From the NCBI GenBank assembly GCA_947650285.1, contig CANTFL010001210.1, positions 1-64,000 of the forward strand: DNA of 64,000 nt, given 5' to 3'. Below the pieces are notes generated by a model. That model saw only the letters and a list, made by a program, of their open reading frames with translations, made no database searches and was not told the DNA's origin. The number at the start of each line of letters is the position of its first letter. Position 1 is the first letter of the stretch. The stretch is from Hyaloperonospora brassicae (Eukaryota; Oomycota; Peronosporomycetes; Peronosporales; Peronosporaceae). This document shows positions 32,190-56,250 of the stretch, in pieces. The position numbers and the translations under genes are program-made.

Positions 32190-32243
32190 AGTCGGTCGCA
32201 GAGCCGGACTGCAGACACTACTCGTCCGGCTCTGCGACCGACT
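32190..32243. repeat. 20 bp perfect inverted repeat upstream of TARBP1
   Basis: Arms at 32190-32209 and 32224-32243 are exact reverse complements with a 14 bp loop. The arm begins AGTCGGTCGC and is GC-rich. It lies 48 bp upstream of the TARBP1 start codon, so it falls in the 5' leader or core promoter. It could fold as a strong hairpin in the leader or act as a dyad protein site. Confidence 0.92.
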
Positions 32244-34299
32244 CGATGACGTTTCGAGACGTTACGCCACGCAATTCCTCTTAATGATCAGAAGCGACCG
32301 CCACTTGGGCCGTTCACGTGTCACTATCCCTGTTGCAGAGTCGTTGAAGAGCTTTGCCTCAAGGAGGTGATATGGATCCAGGGCGATGCCAAAGCCTCTG
32401 GTAGTAACCAATTGATACCACGGCACAGGCACGTGATATAGTGAGCTGCGACTGTAGTGCCGTCGAAACTGCTTCGTGTTTGTGCCTAGAGGAGCTGCAA
32501 AGAGATTGCGGTGCCAGCTGCCGGACACGCTGTCGAAAGACGTAACGACTGGAGCAGTTCGACTGCGGTCGCTGATAACGGACCAAGTGACGGCGCTTAT
32601 GCAAGACGCCAAGTGTGGCCTATCTGTAGCCCGTATGGGCCGGACCTCTCTCCATCGACATGATGATCAGCAGTACGAGGATGTGATGATGGTCGAGCTG
32701 ATCCGACAGACGCCGAGTGTCTAGTTGTGGTATCTGAAAGCAAAGGAGGAGGAACCTGTCAAGTCTGACGAAAGGATGGAGTGGCACTCATAGTTTGCAT
32801 TTCAAAGGAGCACTCGCGCGGCTTGCGGACGACGTGGCGCGTGGTCATAATCAGGTGAGACACGACGTTTGACCGAACGTCTTCTAAACGGGTTTCCTTT
32901 TGACGAATGTTCCAGACGCACCGCTGATGGCTTTGACAGCGACGGCCTCTCGCTGGTGTTTCCGGGCGTACAGCGCGCGTTGCATAGTACAAAGGAACGG
33001 GATTTACTTTGAGCTCTGGCAAACATGAATTTCGCATTCGGGACTCGCGACAAACTTCTGGGCAGCGACGTAGAGACGATGATCGCACTATTCCGACTCA
33101 TTTCCAGCTCTTTTTCCGACGATGTGTTTGCTGGATGTAGTTGCTATCGAGTATTGCGTGACGATGTCGATTAGCGAAGATGTGGCTCACTATCAGATTG
33201 TTTGCGGACTGAGCTCTGCTTTTGCCATGCCGGACAGTCGGCAACGGATCGACACATGATGCAAGAAGCGTACCAAATTGAGCAGCTCTGTTTCGTGTGT
33301 GCTAAAGTTTGCTTATGGTATGGACATGAAGAACCACGACCTGCGCATCGGGATCCTCTTTTCAGCTGCCGAGTCTATGAAAGGCCACTACCACGAAGCT
33401 ATGTGCGCGGGGTGAGGCAACAAGCTATCGCTCGGCACCATGTGGGCAGCCCGCATGACGCGCTCATATTGCGCAGGATCCTCTTCATGCTGCGAAAAAG
33501 ACATGACTGCGAAGAAGGGGCCGAGAATGCGGAGAAGTTTCGACTACTGGCTAACCACTGCAAGCGCAACGCGACATGCCGTCGTCAGCAGCTCATCCCG
33601 TGCTTTGGCCAGAGCTTGAGTCCGCTGAGTGTAAACACGTGCACAAGTCGCCAATGTACTCATCGCACTGCTGGTACAAGCCGCTGATCGTACAGATGAT
33701 GGACACGTCAGTATAGCAGCATTTCTTTTGCTTCGCGCACAGGTCAATCCCTTCGTCTCAGTACGTCTTTCACTGCCCGCCCATGCGGAACATCATGTAC
33801 GATTTGCTAGCTGACAAGAGCTGGAGTTGCATAAAGAACGCCTGAGAGAGTCTGCCTGTCGGGGGCACCTGGTTAACCCCACAAAGAGGATGCGCGCGGC
33901 GTATACACAAGCCTTGGCACTTTCTGTGAGCAGACGTGCGTCCGCATCCACAACCTTTCCGTCCGACTTACATCATGCCCTACACCTCTCATTCAACGTG
34001 AAGCTACCCGATCACCCGATGGTCGTGGATCTGTTTATTGGAATGAGTCCCTCGGGATCGATTTCTTTGTCACCAAAGTTCGTGTCGGCTGGTATAGAAT
34101 GAGGAATCGCTAAACATTTGCCTCCAGTGCAGCCGTACATTTGCTTTCCATCTGCGGCTTGGAGTATCTATCTCTACGTTGTACAATGACTTTGGTTAAG
34201 TGACTGACAGCCAGTTTTGTATCCAATTTTCTAAGGTCGCGTTTGTAATAGCACTTTTTATTGCTTATCACGAAGGATGCCGCTTTTGTCGTGCTCTGA
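32244..34299 (+). pseudogene. Decayed gene sequence split by the retrotransposon
   Basis: Plus-strand protein-like pieces occur in changing frames: MNFAFGTRDKLLGSDVET at about 33026, a stretch at 33202-33687, and KLPDHPMVVDLFIGM at 33827-34102. Minus-strand ORFs (32262-32612, 32759-33088) overlap the earlier part. Removing the element and one TCTGA copy joins 34299 to 42284 in an open plus frame for a short distance (HEGCRFCRALKRDRDWFN). A Ser/Lys-rich coding-like stretch continues to about 42512. No family is recognised. I infer an already broken gene into which the element inserted. Confidence 0.35.
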
Positions 34300-34689
34300 T
34301 GTAACGGGGCACACCCTTGCGTAACTTAACGCAAGGGATTTGGGTGCCCCGACGGACGTACACGTGGCGAGCGAGGAAGCGTAGGTAGGGTAAAAGTAGA
34401 ACTGTTATATTAATAAATTAAGTCTTTAAACTACTGTCTCTTCGTTTGACTTAATTCAATTATACTAATATAACTGCATGTATGGTGACGTCTCGTCACC
34501 ACTCATTGCGCGCGTCTTGCGGCGATTGGTGGGTTGATATCATCACGATATCAACCAATGAACAGACCCTTCTGGTCGACCCTTCAATATCACCACTTTG
34601 GTGATATTGTTTAAAGAATATCCATCTTTATATTCTTTATTGTCACTTTCCTTAAGTGACAATATCATGTAACGGGCTGCCCCGTTACA
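34300..34689 (-). repeat. 3' LTR of the Ty3/gypsy element
   Basis: 390 bp. It is composed largely of consecutive perfect hairpins, for example arms 34314-34322/34329-34337, 34484-34490/34494-34500, 34532-34541/34547-34556, 34585-34595/34599-34609, 34613-34620/34631-34638, 34638-34648/34654-34664 and 34667-34676/34681-34690. Confidence 0.96.
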
Positions 34690-34692
34690 TCA

Positions 34693-34700
34693 CCCCCCTT
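34693..34700 (-). promoter_or_regulatory. Polypurine tract of the retrotransposon
   Basis: On the minus strand AAGGGGGG is followed by TGA and then the 3' LTR start TGTAAC. This is the expected position and composition of the plus-strand DNA priming site. Confidence 0.8.
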
Positions 34701-34818
34701 AACTGATAGTCACCGTGTGACTATCGAAATATCGAGGCCACCCGTTGGCCACCATTGGGACAGGGAGCACTTGTTTGGTCCGTTCCACTCACTTTCCGCT
34801 TGACCTCGCATAGTTAAC

Positions 34819-36422
34819 ATGTCTATGCGAGGTGACTCAAGACCCATACAGCCTGGTGCTGTGCAAGCCTCTGCGGCAGACGCTTCGTCGTCTGCCGCCC
34901 CTTCTTCGCCTGCAGCAACAGGTGCTGCAGGTGCACGCGGTATCACGCCGCGTGCGCACGATGACCCCGATGTGGAGGTCATCTACTCTGGCGAGTCAGA
35001 CGTGTCTGACTCGGGCAATGCTCCAGAGGCGTCTCGCTCACCGGCGACGCCTCAGTATTCGCCAAGGCCACTGCCGAACGAACGGACTCGTGATTCGCAT
35101 CACAGTCTGTTCGGCAGTGATGACGATGATCAGGGTGGTGAGTTCTATTCTTCACCACCGCCGGCTCGTGCGTCTTCGCACGAGCGTGATGACGATGGCG
35201 CGAGCCGTCGTCAATCTGGGAGCCGTGGTACCGACAAGGGTACCACTGTGAAGCGTGATGAGTTGAAGCCGTGGCGTTTGCCCGAACAACTCATCAATAG
35301 CCTGTCTCACGAGACAGGCCAACACCATCGAATACCCTTATTCGATGCAACCGAGCTTCACGGCTTGAGTTCCAGCGCGAAGAACTTTCGCGCTGAAGAA
35401 GACTTTTATCTCGATGTCTTTCTTAGACATCGATGGTACAACAGCAACCAAAAGCGTGACAAAACATCGCTTTTGGCTGCGTGGAACGCGTTCGTCCAAA
35501 ACGTCAAGAATTTTGGACGAGAGGGGTGGCTCAAGAAACTTGAGGCAACACGCCTCAGGTTCGAACGGCGAACGCCAACCGGTGCTAGGTACCGGTTGCA
35601 TTGTTTATCTAGTGAGGCAGGCATTCCTTGCCTCACATGGGGAGACCCTTGTGCGAGTTGTGTTGACAACTCGCATCGTGCACATAGGGATGTGTACTCC
35701 CTAAATTCGCCCTGGGGAAGGGCACACATCTCGGCTGAGATGCGTGACGCGATTGCAAACTTGCAATCCGTCTACAAGCGCCTAGGGCGCGTGTTTACCG
35801 ATGGGCCACAGGACTCATCGGATGGGTCTCGTCATACTGGCGGACGAGACCTTCAACATCCATCAACAGCTGAGAGCGGGGCTCCCAGCTGTTCCAAGAG
35901 GGTGGATACCCCCGCCACTGGACGAGGTAGCTCGTCCTTGATCCTGAATCGTCACGGTGATTCAAGATACGCTCCACTAGGAAGCGTTGATCACCGTGAG
36001 CATCCACCAAAGGATGTGGTGGAGGAGGAAAGACCTCCTCCAGAACCCCAGGCCCACCATCTCGACCCTTACGAGATGGATCGCGCAATCGATGAATTGC
36101 GCGATGACTTGAAGCACGAGCGCGACCGGCGCTACGCTTTGACCGACACCGTGCGGAAGAACCGCAAGGGTCACGAGGCTGATCGGGCGAGGGATCGCGC
36201 CGATTATGCCACGGCGCAGCTTCAGGTCGAGCGGGATGTCCGCTCCTTTTCGGCGAGCTGGCGACAGCTCGCGGAGAGATAACTCGGTTGAATACCGAGG
36301 TATCATATCTGCGCGACCAGACGGATCGTCTGGAGCGCGAACGAAAGAACTTGATGGATGTTCTTGAACGTGGGGGCTATCTTCATCGGAAGAAGAAGGC
36401 TCGTACTGACAGTACGACCTAA
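34819..36422 (+). CDS. Antisense ORF (aORF) of the retrotransposon
   Basis: A plus-strand ORF begins 130 bp inside the 3' LTR, opposite to gag-pol. It is open for 487 codons to 36282. Removing one extra AG in the GAGAG at 36274-36278 lets it continue to a TAA at 36420-36422, about 533 codons in all. The N-terminal ~140 residues are Ser/Pro/Asp-rich and disordered-looking. A central part (about 150-300) has aromatic and Cys/His residues ([11 protein letters not shown], then HRAH). The C-terminal ~120 residues are a highly charged predicted coiled coil (for example [20 protein letters not shown]). I recognise no family. Residues from about 326 on overlap the chromodomain-coding end of pol on the other strand. 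The start codon lies in the loop of a hairpin. It could be a chance product of strand-symmetric sequence, but its length and domain-like layout argue for a protein. Confidence 0.65.
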
Positions 36423-39400
36423 GCCTCCCCACGTAAAACGTAGGATGCGTGCGCATCCTACGTGGCAATTCGAGTGTGTATGCATTGCCCTTGCGATGCA
36501 ACACTCGAAATGGCCCAATGTATTTCGGCAGTAGTTTACTACTGCCGACACTAGTGACTGCATGTCCAGGTTAGGTTTACCGTTGACAGTAGTACTAGGT
36601 CATTAACCTTAAATGAAAGAACATTTGCTCTTCCATTCTTGTCTGCGTTCCGTTTCTGACGGTCCACCGCATTTGCGATGGAGTCCTGAACGAAACGGAC
36701 TACCGCTTCTCGAGTCAGCAGGAAGTTCTCTGCTGACTCTTTGTTTTGTCTAGCAGTGCGCACGAAGCGCACTGCTAAGAGATTGCTCTCTTCTTCAGCG
36801 AGGTTGTCTTCTTCCTCGCTGGCATAATCGTTGGCGATGCTGAATATACCAGCATCGTCATCATCATCCGAATCAATAATAGCGTATTCGCTATTATTGA
36901 GATGATCTTCTTCATCGATGTCGACTTGATCGACATCGGCATCATACGTGACGACGTTTGCGTCGACACGTGATGAGCAAGAGCCAAAACGGTTTTTGCT
37001 CGAGCGAGTCCCTCCCCCCTTATCCAAGAGTCACACTCTATAAGGGTGGGCAATCGTGGATGGCGTAGGCCATTCACGTAAAACGGTGTGTGCTGTGTTG
37101 AAGCATGCACCGAATTATTGATGGCGAATTCCACCATGGGTAGGAATTCGCTCCAACTCGGAAACGAGTGGACATATCCTCGAAGGATCTCTTCGAGGAC
37201 ACGGTTCGCACGTTCCGTCTGACCATCTGTTTCTGGATGGTCAGAAGTGGACATCTTCAATCGTGTTCCGAGAGTACGGAACACGGTTTGCCAAAATTCC
37301 GCCGTGAACCGAGGGTCACGGTCGGATACGAGTTCACGGGGTAACCCGTGGAGTCTAAAGACCGTGTCTAGAAAGACACGAGCACAACCTTGAGCCTTGA
37401 TTGACTCAGGGACAGCAGCAAGATGGACCATCTTGCTGAATCGGTCTACAAACACAAGAATACCATTATTCTTGTGGTCGTCTTCAGGAAACCCGAAGAC
37501 GAAGTCCATTGAAACGGACTGCCAGCACTCTGTCGGAACAGGCAGAGGCTGCAATGGCGCACGGGATGAAGGACTAGGCTTCACCCGTTGACAAACTTCG
37601 CAAGCACGGATGTACTTGCGAACAAACTGATACTGGCGGGGCCAGTAAAAGTCGCGACTTACCGTGAGGTAAGTCTTTTCTCTACCACGATGGCCGCTTG
37701 TTGGGGCATCGTGACACTCATACATGATGCGCAATCGCAAATCATGATGAGCGGGTACGACGACACGAGGCGTGTCGTCGGCAACAGCTGTATAGTACAG
37801 CAATCCGTTGCGTGTACTATACCGATCCGATGAGGATCGGTACAAAGCCGGTAAATCCCTCATGGATTTACTGGATGGATTCACCAGATGATCCATCAAT
37901 CGCAGAAGATCCTTATCTTCCGCGTATGCCTTTCGTACGTCGTCAAGTAAGCTTGACGACGGGACACTGACTGACAGTGTCGCAACAGTGGGCTTATCCT
38001 CACTGTTGGATTGTGCGTCCGGCTCGAAATCGGGCCGGCGCGAAAGAGCATCCGCGACGACATTGAGTCGTCCCGGTTTATACTCCACGGAGAAGTTATA
38101 CTCCGCGAAGAAAGACAGCCACCTCGCCATTCTTTGCGAGAGGTGAGGGCTGTTTACGGCCGTGCGTAATGACGCATGGTCCGTGTAGACAACAAACGGT
38201 CTATCTCCCAAGAGATAGACGCGAAATTTAGCCAGTGCGTATTTCATGGCAAGGAGTTCCTTGTCATGCACTGGGTAATTACGCTCAGCTGCTTGCAGCT
38301 GACGCGATTGATAACAGACGACGCGCTCCGCGCCATCTGCATCGAACTGCATTAACGCACAGCCGATTGCGAAATCGCTGGCGTCACAGACCACATGAAA
38401 TGGTCTGTCCTGATCTGCAATCGCCAAGATCGGCGATTGCATCAAGCTTTGCTTGATACCTTCAAAGGAACGCTGGCACTCAGCGTTCCATGACCACTTG
38501 ACATTTTTCTTGAGCAAGCAAGAAAGATGAACAGTCATCTCGGCGTAGTTGCGCGAGTACTTGTGCAAGTACGCCGCAAGACCAAGGAACTTTCGAAGTC
38601 CCTTGACATCGACTGGCACTGGCCAGTCGGTGATCGCCTTGATCTTTTCGGGATCAGGGCGTACGCCGTGTTTCCCCACGATGCACCCAAGAAGTGGTAT
38701 TTCGCTAGCCGCGAATATACACTTCTTGAGGTTGGCGTACAACTTATGCTTGCGCATAAGTTGAAGAACCTGACGAACGTGAGTTCTGTGAACTTCAACG
38801 TCCGTCTTCCCGTCCATAGCCCGGCTATGGACGAACACATCGTCGAAGTAACTCGGTGCAAAGTCTCGCACCGGTCTCAACAGATTTGTTACACATCTGT
38901 TGAATGTTGCAGGGGCATTACTCAGCCCCTGTGGCATCACTAGCCACTCCCACAGCATCCCGCTGGGGGGTGCTCACTGCTGTGAACGGGACGTCCCGTT
39001 CACGCATCAGGATCTGATAGAATCCATCCATCAGATCCATGGACGAAAAGATGGTACTCTTTGACATACCATCTATGATTACGTCCTTCCTCGGTATCGG
39101 CGTCTGAGCCGGTACCGTTGCAGCATTCAACTTGTTGAATGCGTGCACTATCCGCCACCCTCCTGTGGCCTTTCGCACACAGAAGGTCGGAGAGCTGTGA
39201 GGGGATGTTGATTCCCTCACATGGCCCGCTGCTAAGCGATCGGCAAAGAACTTGTCGATCGCTATCACTTGTTCACGAGGCAGTGGCCACTGCTTCATGA
39301 CACAGTATTTCGAGCCCGGTTTGAGCTCGATCTCGTGTCGAGTGCCTTTGTCCTTAGGCAACTCGCAAGGTACGGATTCAGGGAACACATCCCTGAATTC

Positions 39401-40705
39401 GATCAAATCCTTATACAAAGGATTTGCCTGAAGTGACTCCCAGGATTGGGACGCGTATCGCTCAATCCGAGTCTTCTCATCGAGGACACTTTCGTCCATC
39501 GATGAGCTGCTGAGAACCCGTTCGTTCTCAGCAAATACTGTTGCCGACCGAATGTCGGTCACATACTCGTCCTCTGTGACGAGTACGCAGATCTGCTTGA
39601 CTTTGCCACTACGCAGATCACGCAAGAACCGTTTCGGTTCTAGCGTTGGCAACTGAGTTATCTCCGAAGTCAACTTCGGAGGCACAATCAGATCAAGCGT
39701 ATAAGCGCCTACGCTTGATCCGTCATTAACCAAGACGTTCAACGTCTCGGTTTCTTCCTGGGAACTTGCTTCCACAGGTTGCTGAGGGCCTGATCCCTCA
39801 GCAAGCAACTCTTGAGGAACTCCTTCCTCAAGTACGTGGGGACTTATTCCCTCGACGTCTTCCGACTGTGGCTGTGCAACCACAGTCAGGAACCGATCCT
39901 CTACGGTCGACTCTCCAGTCGACCTAGGATTTTCATGTTGCCCCTTGGGGGCAACAGATTTCTTTCTTCTAAGATGCTGCCCGCTAGGCATGCATCCATG
40001 TCCCGGTCCACTCGACTTATTCGAGTGGTGGACCTTCGGCGCAGCCTGTACTTCTGTACAGCCGCCGGGAGCTTGCTCCACAGTGTAGTGATCAACTACA
40101 CTGTGATCTTGTGCAGTCGTGCTAACGACCGTACCGCAAGTGAGGCCATCGCACTCACTCGCAGAACATCCACACGCTTGTGGACGCTCCAAGATGTTCA
40201 TCAGATGGCCATCTGATGAACAAGCAGCAGGCATCTTCACGGATCGATGCTGCCAGCTCACCCTTGGCTCGTATTTTCTGAGCCAAGGTAATCCCAGGAT
40301 GACATCAAATTTGTCATCCAGATCTAGTACGATGAAATCATCATCGTACTGCTCGCCCTCTAACGTGTAGTGGATTCCTACTACACATTTCTCAACGGTT
40401 ATCGATGCGCCTGTTGCAAGGCGCACCGTCATCCTTGTGAGGGGAATGTCGCGCTCAACGAACTTGAGCCTACGACCCTCTAGTGACTGGCGACGAACAA
40501 AGTTGTTCGACGCCCCACAGTCTACTAGGGCACGAAGCGACAAGTCATTTGTCGCTTCCAACTTCAAGGTGATGAGCGAAACGTCATCACCAGGTGCAGA
40601 GACACACAATGATTGTGTATCTGGAGCAATTTTCGTCAAGAGATTTGCAAATTCTCTTGAGGTTGCTGGATCAGTAGGGCGCTCCGCCCCTACTGACCCC
40701 GACCA
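35795..40705 (-). CDS. pol: Pol polyprotein: protease, RT, RNase H, integrase, chromodomain
   Basis: Pol is expressed by -1 frameshifting from gag (site at 40705-40711); the first Met in its frame is at 40639. Visible domains in order: aspartic protease (LVDCGAS, about 40510); RT with [12 protein letters not shown] (about 39035) and the catalytic box YFDD in place of the usual Y-x-DD (about 38842); RNase H ([12 protein letters not shown], then HDKELLA and YTDHASL); integrase with an HHCC zinc region (CEVCQRVK, about 37580) and D, D, E residues ([31 protein letters not shown]). Last is a chromodomain (about 36010-35830; [20 protein letters not shown]) that would target integration to marked chromatin. 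The frame breaks at G6 38965-38970, C6 37014-37019, about 36567-36578, and 36274-36278. The protein on both sides of each break is family-like. Confidence 0.93.
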
Positions 40706-40711
40706 TTTTTT
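40671..40711 (-). promoter_or_regulatory. Gag-pol -1 ribosomal frameshift signal
   Basis: On the minus strand the heptamer A AAA AAT (plus 40711-40705) is in the correct gag phase for a -1 slip. An 8 nt spacer follows, then a 9 bp stem (plus 40688-40696 paired with 40671-40679, 8 nt loop). The gag stop TAG (40690-40692) lies within this stem. After the slip, the pol frame is open through to protease. Heptamer class, spacing and downstream structure all match known -1 sites. Confidence 0.8.
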
Positions 40712-41844
40712 GATGGTCCGTCTCGCTTTTGCGGCTTCGCAACAGCGCTGGACCCACGCCCATTGCCCTTTCTGGCGAATGGTCGTCCATTTCGCTCAGT
40801 ACTGTTTGGTACTGGGCGTGGAGCACTACACTCGTATGCGTAGTGCCCTAACTTCTGACAGCGATTGCAACTCTGCAATCTCTTGTTGTTTGAAGAGCGA
40901 GGTCTCTCGCTCTCAACATAGCAGAGGTCCATTGGTTCTGGATCTCCGATCTCTTGTCGTCTCGGTGGACGATAAGAGTTTGAGCTAGCATGAGCCTGTC
41001 TCATGCTAAAGTCTTCCTGTTCCGCGGCTGATATCGCTTCTTCAAGCGTATTCAGCTCAAGGCGGAACAGGTGGATCCTGACGGGCCCTTCTGCGAGCCC
41101 TTGCATGAACACCGTAATCAACGTGTGTTCATGGACTGGGTTAGCTGTTATACTACTCGCAAGGAGTCGTATATGTTGTGCGTAAGCGTGCACATCACGC
41201 TTACCCTGCTTGAGTTTCAGTAGCTCCGAACGAGCCCTGAACTCAGCACGTGGCGGCTCAAACGTTTGTCTGAGCCGGGACTTGAATTCATCTAGCGACC
41301 TAAACACGTTTGGGTCGCTACTCTCGAGTCCCAGGGACCAAGTTTTGGCACGCCCTGCCAAGTGGGTCTGAGCAAATGTGAGTTTCATTTGCTCATCTTC
41401 GACGCGACGAGCCCTTAGGGCTCTGTCGAGTTCGACAAACCATAGTAATAGGGAGTCCTCCGGGACTCCACTGTACTTGGAGATGTCGACTTTCATCACT
41501 TCGGGACGACGCGCATGCGCCGTCCCGCCCACAGCAGCATGGAATTGCTGCTGTCTCAACAGCTCCGTCTGTTGAGCACCGAGTTCTCTCAACTGCTCGG
41601 CCTGTTGAGAGCCTTGCTGGTGAAGCAAGGCTACTTTCTCCCTCTCGAGAGCAAGTTCATTGTGAATGAACTTGGCGATAGCAGCATGTTGTTGGTCTCT
41701 GTCTAGAGACTCCAACATGGTTCTGACGACGAGTTCGCCTACGGTAGAACGAATGAGTTCTACCGCACCCCATTCGATGTCACTCAAATGGGTAAACCCT
41801 TCACGCGTGGCGTGAAAGGTGTCTTCTTCATCCAACATGTTCAT
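40690..41844 (-). CDS. gag: Gag (capsid-nucleocapsid) of the Ty3/gypsy element
   Basis: 384 residues, intact. The N-terminus has a coiled-coil, Gln/Leu-rich region (about 75-105). A retrotransposon Gag capsid domain spans about residues 120-260 (LLLWFVELDRALRARR, FAQTHLAGRAKTWSLGL, SRLRQTF). A CCHC zinc knuckle, CNRCQKLGHYAYEC, lies near residue 330, and the tail is basic. Gag packages the element RNA into virus-like particles in the cytoplasm. The start ATG (41842-41844) lies at the tip of a 12 bp hairpin (41828-41839/41842-41853). The stop is inside the frameshift stem, so most translation should give Gag and a fraction Gag-Pol. Confidence 0.95.
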   Translation of the reverse strand: MNMLDEEDTFHATREGFTHLSDIEWGAVELIRSTVGELVVRTMLESLDRDQQHAAIAKFIHNELALEREKVALLHQQGSQQAEQLRELGAQQTELLRQQQFHAAVGGTAHARRPEVMKVDISKYSGVPEDSLLLWFVELDRALRARRVEDEQMKLTFAQTHLAGRAKTWSLGLESSDPNVFRSLDEFKSRLRQTFEPPRAEFRARSELLKLKQGKRDVHAYAQHIRLLASSITANPVHEHTLITVFMQGLAEGPVRIHLFRLELNTLEEAISAAEQEDFSMRQAHASSNSYRPPRRQEIGDPEPMDLCYVESERPRSSNNKRLQSCNRCQKLGHYAYECSAPRPVPNSTERNGRPFARKGNGRGSSAVAKPQKRDGPSKNGRGQ

Positions 41845-41869
41845 GTTGGATGATGTGGTCCTTGGAAGG

Positions 41870-41886
41870 ACTACAAAGTGCTACCA
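41870..41886 (-). promoter_or_regulatory. Candidate primer binding site
   Basis: Two bases inside the 5' LTR the minus strand reads TGGTAGCACTTTG, which begins with the TGG expected opposite a tRNA CCA end. I cannot name the tRNA. Confidence 0.5.
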
Positions 41887-41888
41887 GG

Positions 41889-42278
41889 TGTAACGGGGCA
41901 CACCCTTGCGTAACTTAACGCAAGGGATTTGGGTGCCCCGACGGACGTACACGTGGCGAGCGAGGAAGCGTAGTTAGGGTAAAAGTAGAACTGTTATATT
42001 AATAAATTAAGTCTTTAAACTACTGTCTCTTCGTTTGACTTAATTCAATTATACTAATATAACTGCATGTATGGTGACGTCTCGTCACCACTCATTGCGC
42101 GCGTCTTGCGGCGATTGGTGGGTTGATATCATCACGATATCAACCAATGAACAGACCCTTCTGGTCGACCCTTCAATATCACCGCTTTGGTGATATTGTT
42201 TAAAGAATATCCATCTTTATATTCTTTATTGTCACTTTCCTTAAGTGACAATATCATGTAACGGGCTGCCCCGTTACA
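41889..42278 (-). repeat. 5' LTR of the Ty3/gypsy element
   Basis: 390 bp with the same length as the 3' LTR, two substitutions and no indels. It should hold the promoter for gag-pol transcription on the minus strand. The A-to-G difference at 42184 sits at a stem end and would still allow G-U pairing in RNA. Confidence 0.96.
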
Positions 42279-42283
42279 TCTGA

Positions 42284-53879: not shown

Positions 53880-56250
53880 TATATTCAAGAGCTATACGAG
53901 ATGTCTGCCGATGAGTTAGGCCATGCCTTAAAGGCTAATAGTATCATTAACATGGTGGTAATGTCACCGGATGTCGAAAACCAATCACCTTTTTTTCTTG
54001 GTGAGAATTTCTGATGACACGAAGTCGACGCTTATTCCGCACGGTACACCATCAATCCATGAAGATTTGCTCTATATTATATATTATAGCTTTCGAGACG
54101 TAATAAGTCATAACCCTCCATCTGTTATACCCCCCGACAGAGGTTTACGTTTGAATCGACCAGGTTTTTCGATAATGAATATTGCGTAACACGGCAATGT
54201 ACTTTCTGAAAGAATTTGTGCCGTCATCGACTTATTTCTTCTGTGCTAATAAACAGATTAAAACGGCTCGTAAGATTAAGTCTCATCAAGCTAGATCGAA
54301 TTTTGTGGCAAGAACCCGATTGTCAAGTGACGCATAGTTCATGCTTATGATTAGCTGAATGCGGCCATTATACCGGCGCAGACAGAAGGAAGGTTGACGA
54401 AACACTTGGCAGGATGTGCGATTTAACGTGCTCGTCAAAGTCGATTGTTTTTACCATTTGCCCATTCGAGCTAGTAACATATCGTTGACCGCAGTCGGTT
54501 ATACTAGCGGTAGGATATGGTAGTGATGTGTTTGATATCAAGGCATATCAAATGATACGGCTACATCAAAATTTCTGGTGACGCAACTGTTTCGACCCTT
54601 AACATGATATGATCTAATAACATTTGATTATATGTTTATCTGTAGTTATGCTGAGCAGAGTCGTTCCGATGTGTAAAACTACACAAACCTCTCACGATCT
54701 GTGCTCTAGAGCTTGCGCGAACAAGGTGTTTGCTAATGCATTCAAATGAATCTTGGCGCGGATAATATCTCCTATCGTGGTCGTTTATTATCAATAACGG
54801 TCTTTGATCGGACATCGACAGAATATAATATATTGTCTTTCGGCCGACTGAGAACAAGAAAAAGGGGTTGCACAAGTAGCTTGTCGTTACCATTTACTTG
54901 CTCTAGTACAGCGAGCACTGCTTTGAATGACTCGGCCATTATCCAATCTCTTACAGAAAGGAATGGATTGGTGCAACACAAGCACTTATAACGAAGAATT
55001 TGAAGCAAAAAGCAGGGTGTCTTTAATGCCCTAATCTTGGCCCGCCCGATTATTGTCGGCCTTACAGTGACTTCGTTGACGCGTCTGACTTTGCCATTGG
55101 TATTGCGTGATTACAAACAGATGTGTATGAATGGGTACTCGTAATTACATTGAGTCCCAGTAGATAAACGCTTCAGAACAGAACTTCCCAATTTATGACA
55201 AAGAGATGCTTGCTATGAAGAACGCTTCGGTCAAGTTCTGGTCGCACTTAGCTGTCTCTGAACCATTTGTAAACCTAACCGACAATGTATCTTTACTTTT
55301 TACAGATCAGGCACCACACCTCTCACATCAAATGTCCTGCTGTATTTTATTGTTTGCGTTATATGATGTCGAGGTGAAGTATAATTTGGCCAAGCAAAAT
55401 GCTTTGGATGATGCATTGTCACGCAGATCCTGTTATGAGCTTGCCCATGGTACGACTTTGTCGTCATCCATCACTAACTTACTTTGTGCGGCCTTGCCAA
55501 TAGTAAACATCGTACAGATTTCTTAAGGCTAATGCTCCCTCTACTTGATTATGCCTTGACGAACGCTGTTCATGCCTTTTCAGGCAATACCCCTAATTAA
55601 ATTAGCGGTCTCGCAAATCCTTGCGTTACGTTTACGCCTATACTGACTTGATCAGGGCTCAATTGGGAAAAAGATGCTGATCGGCCAGCTGATGTCAGCT
55701 CCGCTTCTGTACAGAACATGTATGCGCATTTCTCGCTACATGATTAAAATTATAAGACATGTGTGTGACGGAATAGGTAAATAGTCAGGATAAACAAAAG
55801 AATCAAGCAATAAATATAGTGAGAAATGAAATTGAAACTTATGGGATAGAAGTCCAAGCCTTTTTTTGATTATGAAAATGCTACCTACCTAAGGCAGTGT
55901 CTACAAGGTCAAAAACAAAGTTCCGACCGCACTTCATTAGACCTTTTGAGGATGTGGACAAGAAGGGCCCCGCATAAACGATAAATCTATATCGCAAGTT
56001 GCTCAAATACCCTGTGTTACACGTTGACTTCCTTTAGCCGTAATGGGATCCGTCTCACTTTCAATGGAACGTGCTTGCGCCGCGTTACTTGTCCTTACGA
56101 CAAGACGCTGCATCGGAGCCAGGATATAAAAACGAGACTCAACTCGACTGAAATTATGCTCCACCGCTCGTAGAAAAATTCACTCTGCGCCTAGCGCAAT
56201 CGACAAATGGTCTGTATTTGCGTCTAGAACGCTAAAATATAATTTTACTG
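53880..56250 (+). pseudogene. Decayed Ty3/gypsy pol relic
   Basis: Plus-strand pieces of a gypsy pol appear in the correct order but in changing frames with stops. They are the linker before RT (FRDVISHNPPSVIPPDRG, about 54090), a mutated RT start (about 54320-54400), the RNase H motif [10 protein letters not shown] (about 55080), and MLAMKNASVKFW with the end of RNase H (NALDDALSRRS, 55206-55440). Last is the post-integrase tail (RPHFIRPFEDV, then PVLHVDFL and WDPSHFQWN, about 55930-56070). Most of integrase is missing or unrecognisable. It is clearly older than, and of a different lineage from, the element at 34.3-42.3 kb. No LTRs were identified. Confidence 0.78.

Follow-up and report, generated by a model that had tools for sequence, protein, structure and literature searches.

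On its sequence features, the element at positions 34,300–42,278 of the window (the whole 64,000-nucleotide stretch of DNA analysed) is a Ty3/gypsy element with a chromodomain, young and present in many copies in its oomycete host, and our analysis suggests that its sequence is shaped over the full length so that small hairpins form on either strand. We counted 113 exact inverted repeats (arms of at least 8 bases and loops of 0–15 nt, unless stated otherwise) in its 7,979 bp, both LTRs included, which gives 14.16/kb versus 24 repeats in the other 56,021 bp of the window, or 0.43/kb. The first-pass annotation had described the whole element as tiled with short palindromes, and the counts agree: every 500-bp bin contains 5–10 inverted repeats, and none is empty.

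Architecture and palindrome geometry of the element

The element is coded on the minus strand and flanked by a target-site duplication, the same five bases (TCTGA) being present at 34,295–34,299 and 42,279–42,283. The two palindrome-tiled 390-bp LTRs, both on the minus strand (3′ LTR, 34,300–34,689; 5′ LTR, 41,889–42,278), differ at 2 of 390 positions. By position, a candidate polypurine tract adjoins the 3′ LTR (34,693–34,700, minus strand), and a candidate primer-binding site starting with TGG lies two bases inside the 5′ LTR (41,869–41,886, minus strand). Minus-strand ORFs with domain matches comprise gag (384 aa, Retrotrans_gag; 40,690–41,844), a first pol piece with the aspartyl protease and the start of RT (38,918–40,639), and a second with the remaining RT, RNase H, and integrase (36,775–38,958); a chromodomain (Chromo, E 1.8e-14; 35,795–36,088, minus strand) is located at the end of pol, which in the window copy is broken into several ORFs. 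The LTR pair with the TCTGA duplication and the position of RT and RNase H before the integrase are those of Ty3/gypsy elements, and Chromo after the integrase fits the chromodomain-bearing gypsy clade (chromoviruses). A fold-back or MITE-type element is ruled out, as LTRs and coding domains are present instead of long terminal inverted repeats. Protein matches (the best 120 of 2,450) show relatives of pol in Peronospora, Phytophthora, Globisporangium, and Aphanomyces; no relative was found in viral contigs or in bacterial and archaeal genomes. On the plus strand, an antisense ORF of 487 aa with 14 homologues (34,819–36,282) overlaps the end of pol, and outside this overlap its third codon positions change approximately twice as often. 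This coding ORF counts in favour of the explanation preferred below.

The pattern ends at the LTR edges, as had been claimed, with no repeat starting in 33.0–34.3 kb or 42.3–44.0 kb, and the older gypsy relic at 53.9–56.2 kb, described as not obviously showing the pattern, contains one inverted repeat. The 25 pairs reported for 34,803–36,105 became 24 in our recount with loops up to 15 nt and 27 with loops up to 30 nt. The statement that palindromes follow one another almost without gaps was too strong, since the repeats cover 34% of the element and stem-to-stem gaps extend up to 197 nt. Codon-preserving shuffles (100 per piece, loops of 0–20 nt), a check proposed earlier, put the observed density of gag and pol at 20–41 times that of the shuffles: 12 repeats in gag versus a mean of 0.60, 25 in the PR-RT piece versus 0.67, and 24 in the RT-IN piece versus 0.59, with a shuffle maximum of 3 in each case. 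The excess is short-range, mostly at loops below 20 nt and little beyond ~40 nt, which rejects long-range folding. Arms are mostly 8–11 bp and loops mostly 2–10 nt (mode 4–5), the modal span is 23 nt, and only 2 of 118 palindromes have no loop. A second peak of the excess over a first-order Markov background appears at arms of 8–9, and arms are longer where G+C is lower (rho −0.26, p 0.0075). The longest arm with a loop of up to 15 nt is 14 bp, in a loopless hairpin at 40,195–40,222. The codon phase demanding the most first- and second-position matches is under-used (8 of 59 stems), in line with the earlier claim that synonymous choices accommodate the arms.

Copies, conservation of the stems, and folding

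The pattern is common to all 29 young copies examined and was also found in 24 further loci of the same family (among the matches listed; 6.7–14.8 repeats/kb) and in 15 more stretches. In contrast, the tiling was sought and was absent in 13 control loci, six of one other gypsy family (0.3–0.6 repeats/kb) and seven of copia (0–0.9 repeats/kb), which gives no support to a genome-wide or general gypsy property. The first 560 bases of L003 were dropped before the counts, and L069, which sits at the place of L052, is not an independent control. Successful palindrome-free families in the same genome (among the matches listed) are counted against the explanation preferred below. Older copies contain fewer palindromes, and a copy has the more of them the closer it is in identity to the young ones (rho 0.90, n = 24). 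A comparison covering 15 of the 24 same-family loci showed that in ~95%-identical copies the divergence of arms defined in a young copy is about that of other sites, as expected after the death of a copy.

Across lineages the arms change less than their surroundings. At fourfold sites, 14/125 in arms versus 126/454 in the rest had changed in one comparison and 10/143 versus 141/478 in a second; when the arms were set from a third lineage, the values were 6/81 versus 134/498 and 18/107 versus 133/514. Change in the non-coding LTR was 0.09–0.20 in arms and 0.29–0.31 in the rest, and among 30 copies the variable sites numbered 26 of 1,351 in arms, 35 of 492 in loops, and 170 of 2,658 in the rest (p 4e-11). 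Alignment pieces shorter than 150 bases and gapped sites were dropped from the fourfold and matched-change tests; L073 (73 bases) and L080 (partial) were left out of one alignment, and the mosaic L078 was left out of the LTR group comparison. The right end of L061 (from ~1951), tried as an unalignable LTR with its own palindromes, was withdrawn and is not used as evidence: only 35–84 nt match other LTRs, a limit that also holds against the other LTR of its own copy.

Paired changes restoring complementarity numbered 23 versus 2.3 expected and 15 versus 3.7 expected in two comparisons (permutation, 2,000 rounds, maxima of 9 and 13). After stems gapped in an arm were dropped, 85 and 95 of 104 were kept; 45 of the 85 (7% expected) and 27 of the 95 (6% expected) are still perfect. 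Matched changes are carried by 15 and 11 stems. A hairpin with 12-bp arms at 36,873–36,900 has four in two old lineages, and the hairpin at 40,986–41,008 has two adjacent ones in L070. Covariation over 13 sequences gave no excess of pairs changed on both sides (20 versus 17.5 in shuffles) or of further pair types (84 versus 88.4); the cells (68 versus 34) and the score lay above the shuffles, and a slide of +2 gave 19 pairs and 36 cells. The small outgroup-filtered polymorphism test gave weak results, with p of 0.05, 0.04, 0.17, and 1.0 across the four sets of outgroups.

The proposed check of RNA-folding z-scores (30 shuffles per 300-nt folding window; gag and two pol pieces) gave a strong excess in gag and pol with z about −8 on both strands, −7.6 to −8.7 in sense and −6.8 to −8.3 in antisense. 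As in genome-scale ordered RNA structure, the predicted energy in sense lies below that of the sequence-order controls. One control gypsy ORF was slightly structured (z −1.8); this value, the covariation nulls, and the weak outgroup-filtered polymorphism are counted against the preferred explanation. In sense, G-U pairs are not preferred over A-C mismatches (12 versus 10 and 54 versus 52), contrary to what would be expected if the genomic RNA strand, where G-U is tolerated, had moulded the pairing. With no such preference and equal folding of both strands, sense-RNA folding alone is therefore insufficient.

Selection, template switching, and other explanations

The explanation that we prefer, a tiled element whose hairpins are selected in the retrotransposition cycle and whose self-folding is of benefit, is as a whole evenly poised between right and wrong, and its core, selection for strand-symmetric hairpins, is somewhat probable. 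We infer that the ability to form hairpins would be favoured equally on both strands during the cycle, with the protein code acting as a constraint. Less certainly, every single-stranded form, be it sense or antisense transcript or cDNA, may fold on itself before meeting its complement. Such self-folding would reduce double-stranded RNA and small-RNA access; each stem would be too short as a Dicer substrate, and the element's own antisense and the host small RNAs would not easily pair with the self-folded element. Small-RNA evasion, named among the causes in the first-pass annotation, is our leading functional guess. A silencing shield as the function of the hairpins is a tentative possibility, and its fullest form, a strand-symmetric hairpin code laid over the protein code and the LTRs that would act as an RNA-silencing shield in synonymous and non-coding sites with compensatory upkeep, is rather doubtful.

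The main rival is a mutational drive by template switching, which we consider improbable though well worth weighing: the nascent strand would fold back in reverse transcription and one imperfect arm would template the other, so that arms are perfected, loops are sometimes inverted, protein selection filters the products, and the palindromes need no function. Exact loop inversions between copies speak for it, namely the 5-nt loop of a hairpin with 11-bp arms at 36,751–36,777, inverted in the window copy, the 6-nt loop of a hairpin with 9-bp arms at 41,742–41,765, inverted relative to two old lineages; in L056 and L060, moreover, 2 nt are flipped (a 2-nt loop flip in L003 was not counted, lying outside its family-aligned part). 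These inversions point to a copying process able to make arms alike and are counted against the preferred explanation. The equal numbers of G-U and A-C mismatches, some clustering of the matched changes (two stems with at least three versus 0.2 expected, p ~0.02; five with at least two versus 2.6 expected, p ~0.12), and the somewhat lower conservation of residues encoded by codons wholly inside arms also favour it. However, exact flips are few (2 of 80 and 3 of 88 loops compared), fewer than the stems that carry matched changes (15 and 11), and the arm-length peak at 8–9 and the link of arm length to G+C suggest a required stability. By our reasoning, template switching also predicts undiminished change in non-coding arms; as a cause suggested earlier it gains from the inversions, but alone it leaves the low arm change in the non-coding LTR unexplained.

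Selection only on the sense genomic RNA, for its folding, packaging, or dimerisation, like the genome-wide structure of some RNA viruses, is quite unlikely. The marked folding of gag and pol beyond the shuffles would fit it, and short palindromes are reported to work in Ty3 RNA dimerisation (PMC11381356); however, the sense strand has no G-U preference, the antisense folds as well as the sense, zero-loop palindromes are rare, and the density is uniform along the element. Two causes proposed earlier lose ground here: a globally folded genomic RNA does not fit pairing that is local, strand-equal, and without G-U preference, and packaging or dimerisation signals are a weak candidate because loops of 4–5 nt are modal and zero-loop palindromes are rare. 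That the palindromes are made or renewed by the host, through a process working on the integrated DNA, is very improbable, being contradicted by the palindrome-free repeat families of the same genome and by the fewer palindromes of older copies, and no evidence supporting such a process was found. Chance, composition, or an assembly artefact has practically no probability, given the codon-preserving shuffles, the density contrast with the rest of the window, and the recurrence of these palindromes in older copies and in 29 further young copies, which lie on different contigs or in different places.

Comparison with known systems

The element is a chromosomal retroelement in which both strands carry short stems, perfect for the most part, in LTRs as well as genes, and its copies of differing age record how the stems evolved. 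Two ideas become testable now, structure-based escape of a transposon from silencing and a reverse transcriptase that writes palindromes into its own genome; either outcome would be surprising. In the literature searched, we found no element with end-to-end palindrome tiling, which is no proof of absence. Like oomycete chromodomain Ty3/gypsy elements, the element has the gag-PR-RT-RH-IN-chromodomain order, LTRs, and a 5-bp target duplication, but it differs in its antisense gene. Its palindrome tiling is missing in the single further gypsy family that we looked at; with other species, the comparison covered protein sequences.

Genome-scale ordered RNA structure has been discussed for RNA viruses, and the element shares with them an excess of predicted folding over the full length, in coding and non-coding sequence. 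In contrast to these viruses, it is a chromosomal retroelement whose stems are mostly perfect Watson-Crick, local, strand-equal, and without G-U preference.

RNA dimerisation of Ty3 and Ty1 uses palindromes; six of 6 nt are described close to the 5′ end, of which one is reported to be functional (PMC11381356). Short palindromes in the RNA of a gypsy-type retrotransposon are common to both cases, but here ~100 stems extend along the full length instead of lying at the 5′ end. In chloroplast DNA, small inversions of the loop between short inverted repeats are reported in plastomes (PMC12928735). A flip of loop orientation likewise occurs in our element, but there it affects some of the stems that tile a retroelement.

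Structure of the element and its palindromes

The element at 34300-42278, whose coding strand is the minus strand, is an LTR retrotransposon with two LTRs of 390 bp each that differ at 2 positions, a flanking TCTGA target duplication, and gag, protease, reverse transcriptase, RNase H, integrase, and chromodomain regions. The pol of the window copy is broken into several ORFs, and at other loci of the genome reading frames as long as 1,666 aa span the RNase H domain. All organism names among the 120 pol matches listed are oomycetes, the closest of these being Peronospora effusa (86% over 86% of the query). With 40 of 2,118 candidates scored in the 100.6 Mb genome, at least 40 places, including that of the window, were 99-100% identical over 1.5 kb.

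The excess of short palindromes claimed for this element in the first-pass annotation is borne out by the counts, and the palindromes are real. At arms ≥8 bp and loops ≤15 nt, the element contains 113 inverted repeats (14.16/kb), against 24 in the 56 kb of the window outside it (0.43/kb). With loops of up to 20 nt, the ORF pieces contain 12, 25, and 24, compared with ~0.6 each in codon-preserving shuffles. All 500-bp bins of the element contain 5 to 10; the typical palindrome has arms of 8-11 bp, a loop of 4-5 nt, and a span near 23 nt, and the arm-length excess over background shows a second peak at 8-9. The older gypsy relic at 53900-56200, described earlier as not obviously palindromic, indeed has a single inverted repeat with arms ≥8. 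The longest exact inverted repeat of the window (loop ≤30), with 20-bp arms and a 14-nt loop, lies outside the element at 32190-32243.

A 487-aa antisense ORF (34819-36282, plus strand) occupies the region from the 3' LTR to the pol end and overlaps pol; it gave no match in a Pfam search and has 14 homologues, including 2 from Peronospora matthiolae. Change at its third codon positions is 0.215 outside the pol overlap, about twice the 0.11 and 0.12 of the first and second positions, and no such rise is seen within the overlap. The ORF is broken in several relatives and is apparently coding.

Family specificity and loss with age

The palindromes are a trait of one family, not of the host. Per 4.5 kb, 59-62 inverted repeats were found in the 29 other young, near-identical copies and 61 in the window copy. 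Among 30 loci fetched by an RNase H profile, 24 belong to the same family, with 6.7-14.8 inverted repeats per kb, and 6 belong to another gypsy family (~65% identical over 1.2 kb, with reading frames as long as 1,566 aa), with 0.3-0.6 per kb. The density at seven copia loci is 0-0.9 per kb. A further 15 genomic stretches (L061, L070-L072, and L074-L084), 7 of which adjoin copies already counted (L035, L042, L050, L056, and L060), have 6.8-12.1 per kb. Across the 24 family loci, palindrome number rises with identity to the window (rho 0.90); integrated copies therefore lose palindromes over time, without renewal by the host. These comparisons cover one genome, and the relatives of the family in other species were compared as proteins.

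The gag-side end of the L056 copy (L061 1951-2451), which contains five inverted repeats, matches the other LTR of that copy in short stretches only, and the copy is possibly chimeric or rearranged. L078 is apparently a mosaic, with an LTR like the L071/L081 group and an inner part like the window group, which suggests recombination between lineages.

Maintenance and strand symmetry of the stems

The palindromes are maintained in the family. Fourfold degenerate sites inside arms show 2.5- and 4.2-fold fewer differences than those elsewhere when the window copy is compared with two old lineages, and the reduction is 3.6- and 1.5-fold if the arms are instead defined in a third lineage. In the non-coding LTR, with a third sequence used to define the arms, differences per site are 0.09-0.20 in arms and 0.29-0.31 outside. 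Among the 30 copies, 1.9% of arm sites, 7.1% of loop sites, and 6.4% of the remaining sites are variable; after outgroup filtering the numbers are small, and the arm-versus-rest difference is present with some outgroup choices and absent with others.

Matched changes on both arms that restore pairing number 23 in the first old lineage (2.3 expected), alongside 4 double changes that do not restore it and 62 single changes. The second lineage has 15 (3.7 expected), alongside 6 and 130, respectively. Examples of matched changes are TAGCATGAG/CTCATGCTA vs. TAGTGTGAG/CTCACACTA and TCGATGTCT/AGACATCGA vs. TCGATGCTT/AAGCATCGA. The relatives compared are mostly old copies, whose decay adds noise. A covariation analysis of 13 sequences gave a mixed result: double-change cells (68 vs. 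34) and the score were above every one of 500 shuffles, unlike the counts of pairs (20 vs. 17.5) and of pair types. Two lineage groups differ in the palindromes they carry at one place close to the outer LTR end. At L072 532-562, also at the outer LTR end, two mutually exclusive palindromes overlap, and those of the window type at this position are quite different.

Both strands matter for the pairing. Selection acting on the sense RNA alone is expected to favour G-U. Read in sense, near-perfect stems of the window copy contain 12 G-U and 10 A-C mismatches, and the pairs just past the stem ends 31 and 41; single changes in the two old lineages, part of which reflect decay after death, give 54 and 52. 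Folding z-scores are similar for the two strands, at -7.6 to -8.7 in sense and -6.8 to -8.3 in antisense, with sense values of -1.8, -0.2, and -0.9 for three control ORFs.

In the coding pieces, 8 of 59 stems pair third with third codon positions, the phase with the heaviest demand for first- and second-position matches, against 27 and 24 in the other phases. Residues of codons wholly within arms are slightly less conserved in the RT-IN piece (0.685 vs. 0.743, p 0.009). We infer from both observations that the palindromes took shape at a time when the proteins were in use.

Loop inversions and the origin of the palindromes

By column counts, 22 of the 29 other copies have the exact reverse complement of the 36762-36766 loop, and 7 deviate from it by one base; the other orientation also occurs in both old lineages, and it is therefore the window copy that is inverted. 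At 41751-41756, two old lineages have the loop exactly reverse-complemented, and L056 and L060 carry a flipped 2-nt loop, a flip that two substitutions could also produce. Thus, the arms meet, or the polymerase switches template, at these sites. PMC12928735 describes small inversions of this kind in chloroplast hairpins.

The palindromes are family-wide, strand-symmetric, and locally pairing, and are preserved only in the lineage that replicates. They most likely reflect selection for hairpins in each single-stranded form of the element. The main alternative, that reverse transcriptase perfects inverted repeats, accounts for the loop flips and the strand symmetry but explains less well how little the non-coding arms change. 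Both processes may act together. The apparently coding antisense gene implies that complementary transcripts arise, and under hairpin selection short stems could slow their pairing and cover target sites of small RNAs. The stems meanwhile are far shorter than the inverted repeats with the highest small-RNA yield in Phytophthora infestans, where, according to PMC3804510, inverted and tandem repeats give the highest yield per Mb.
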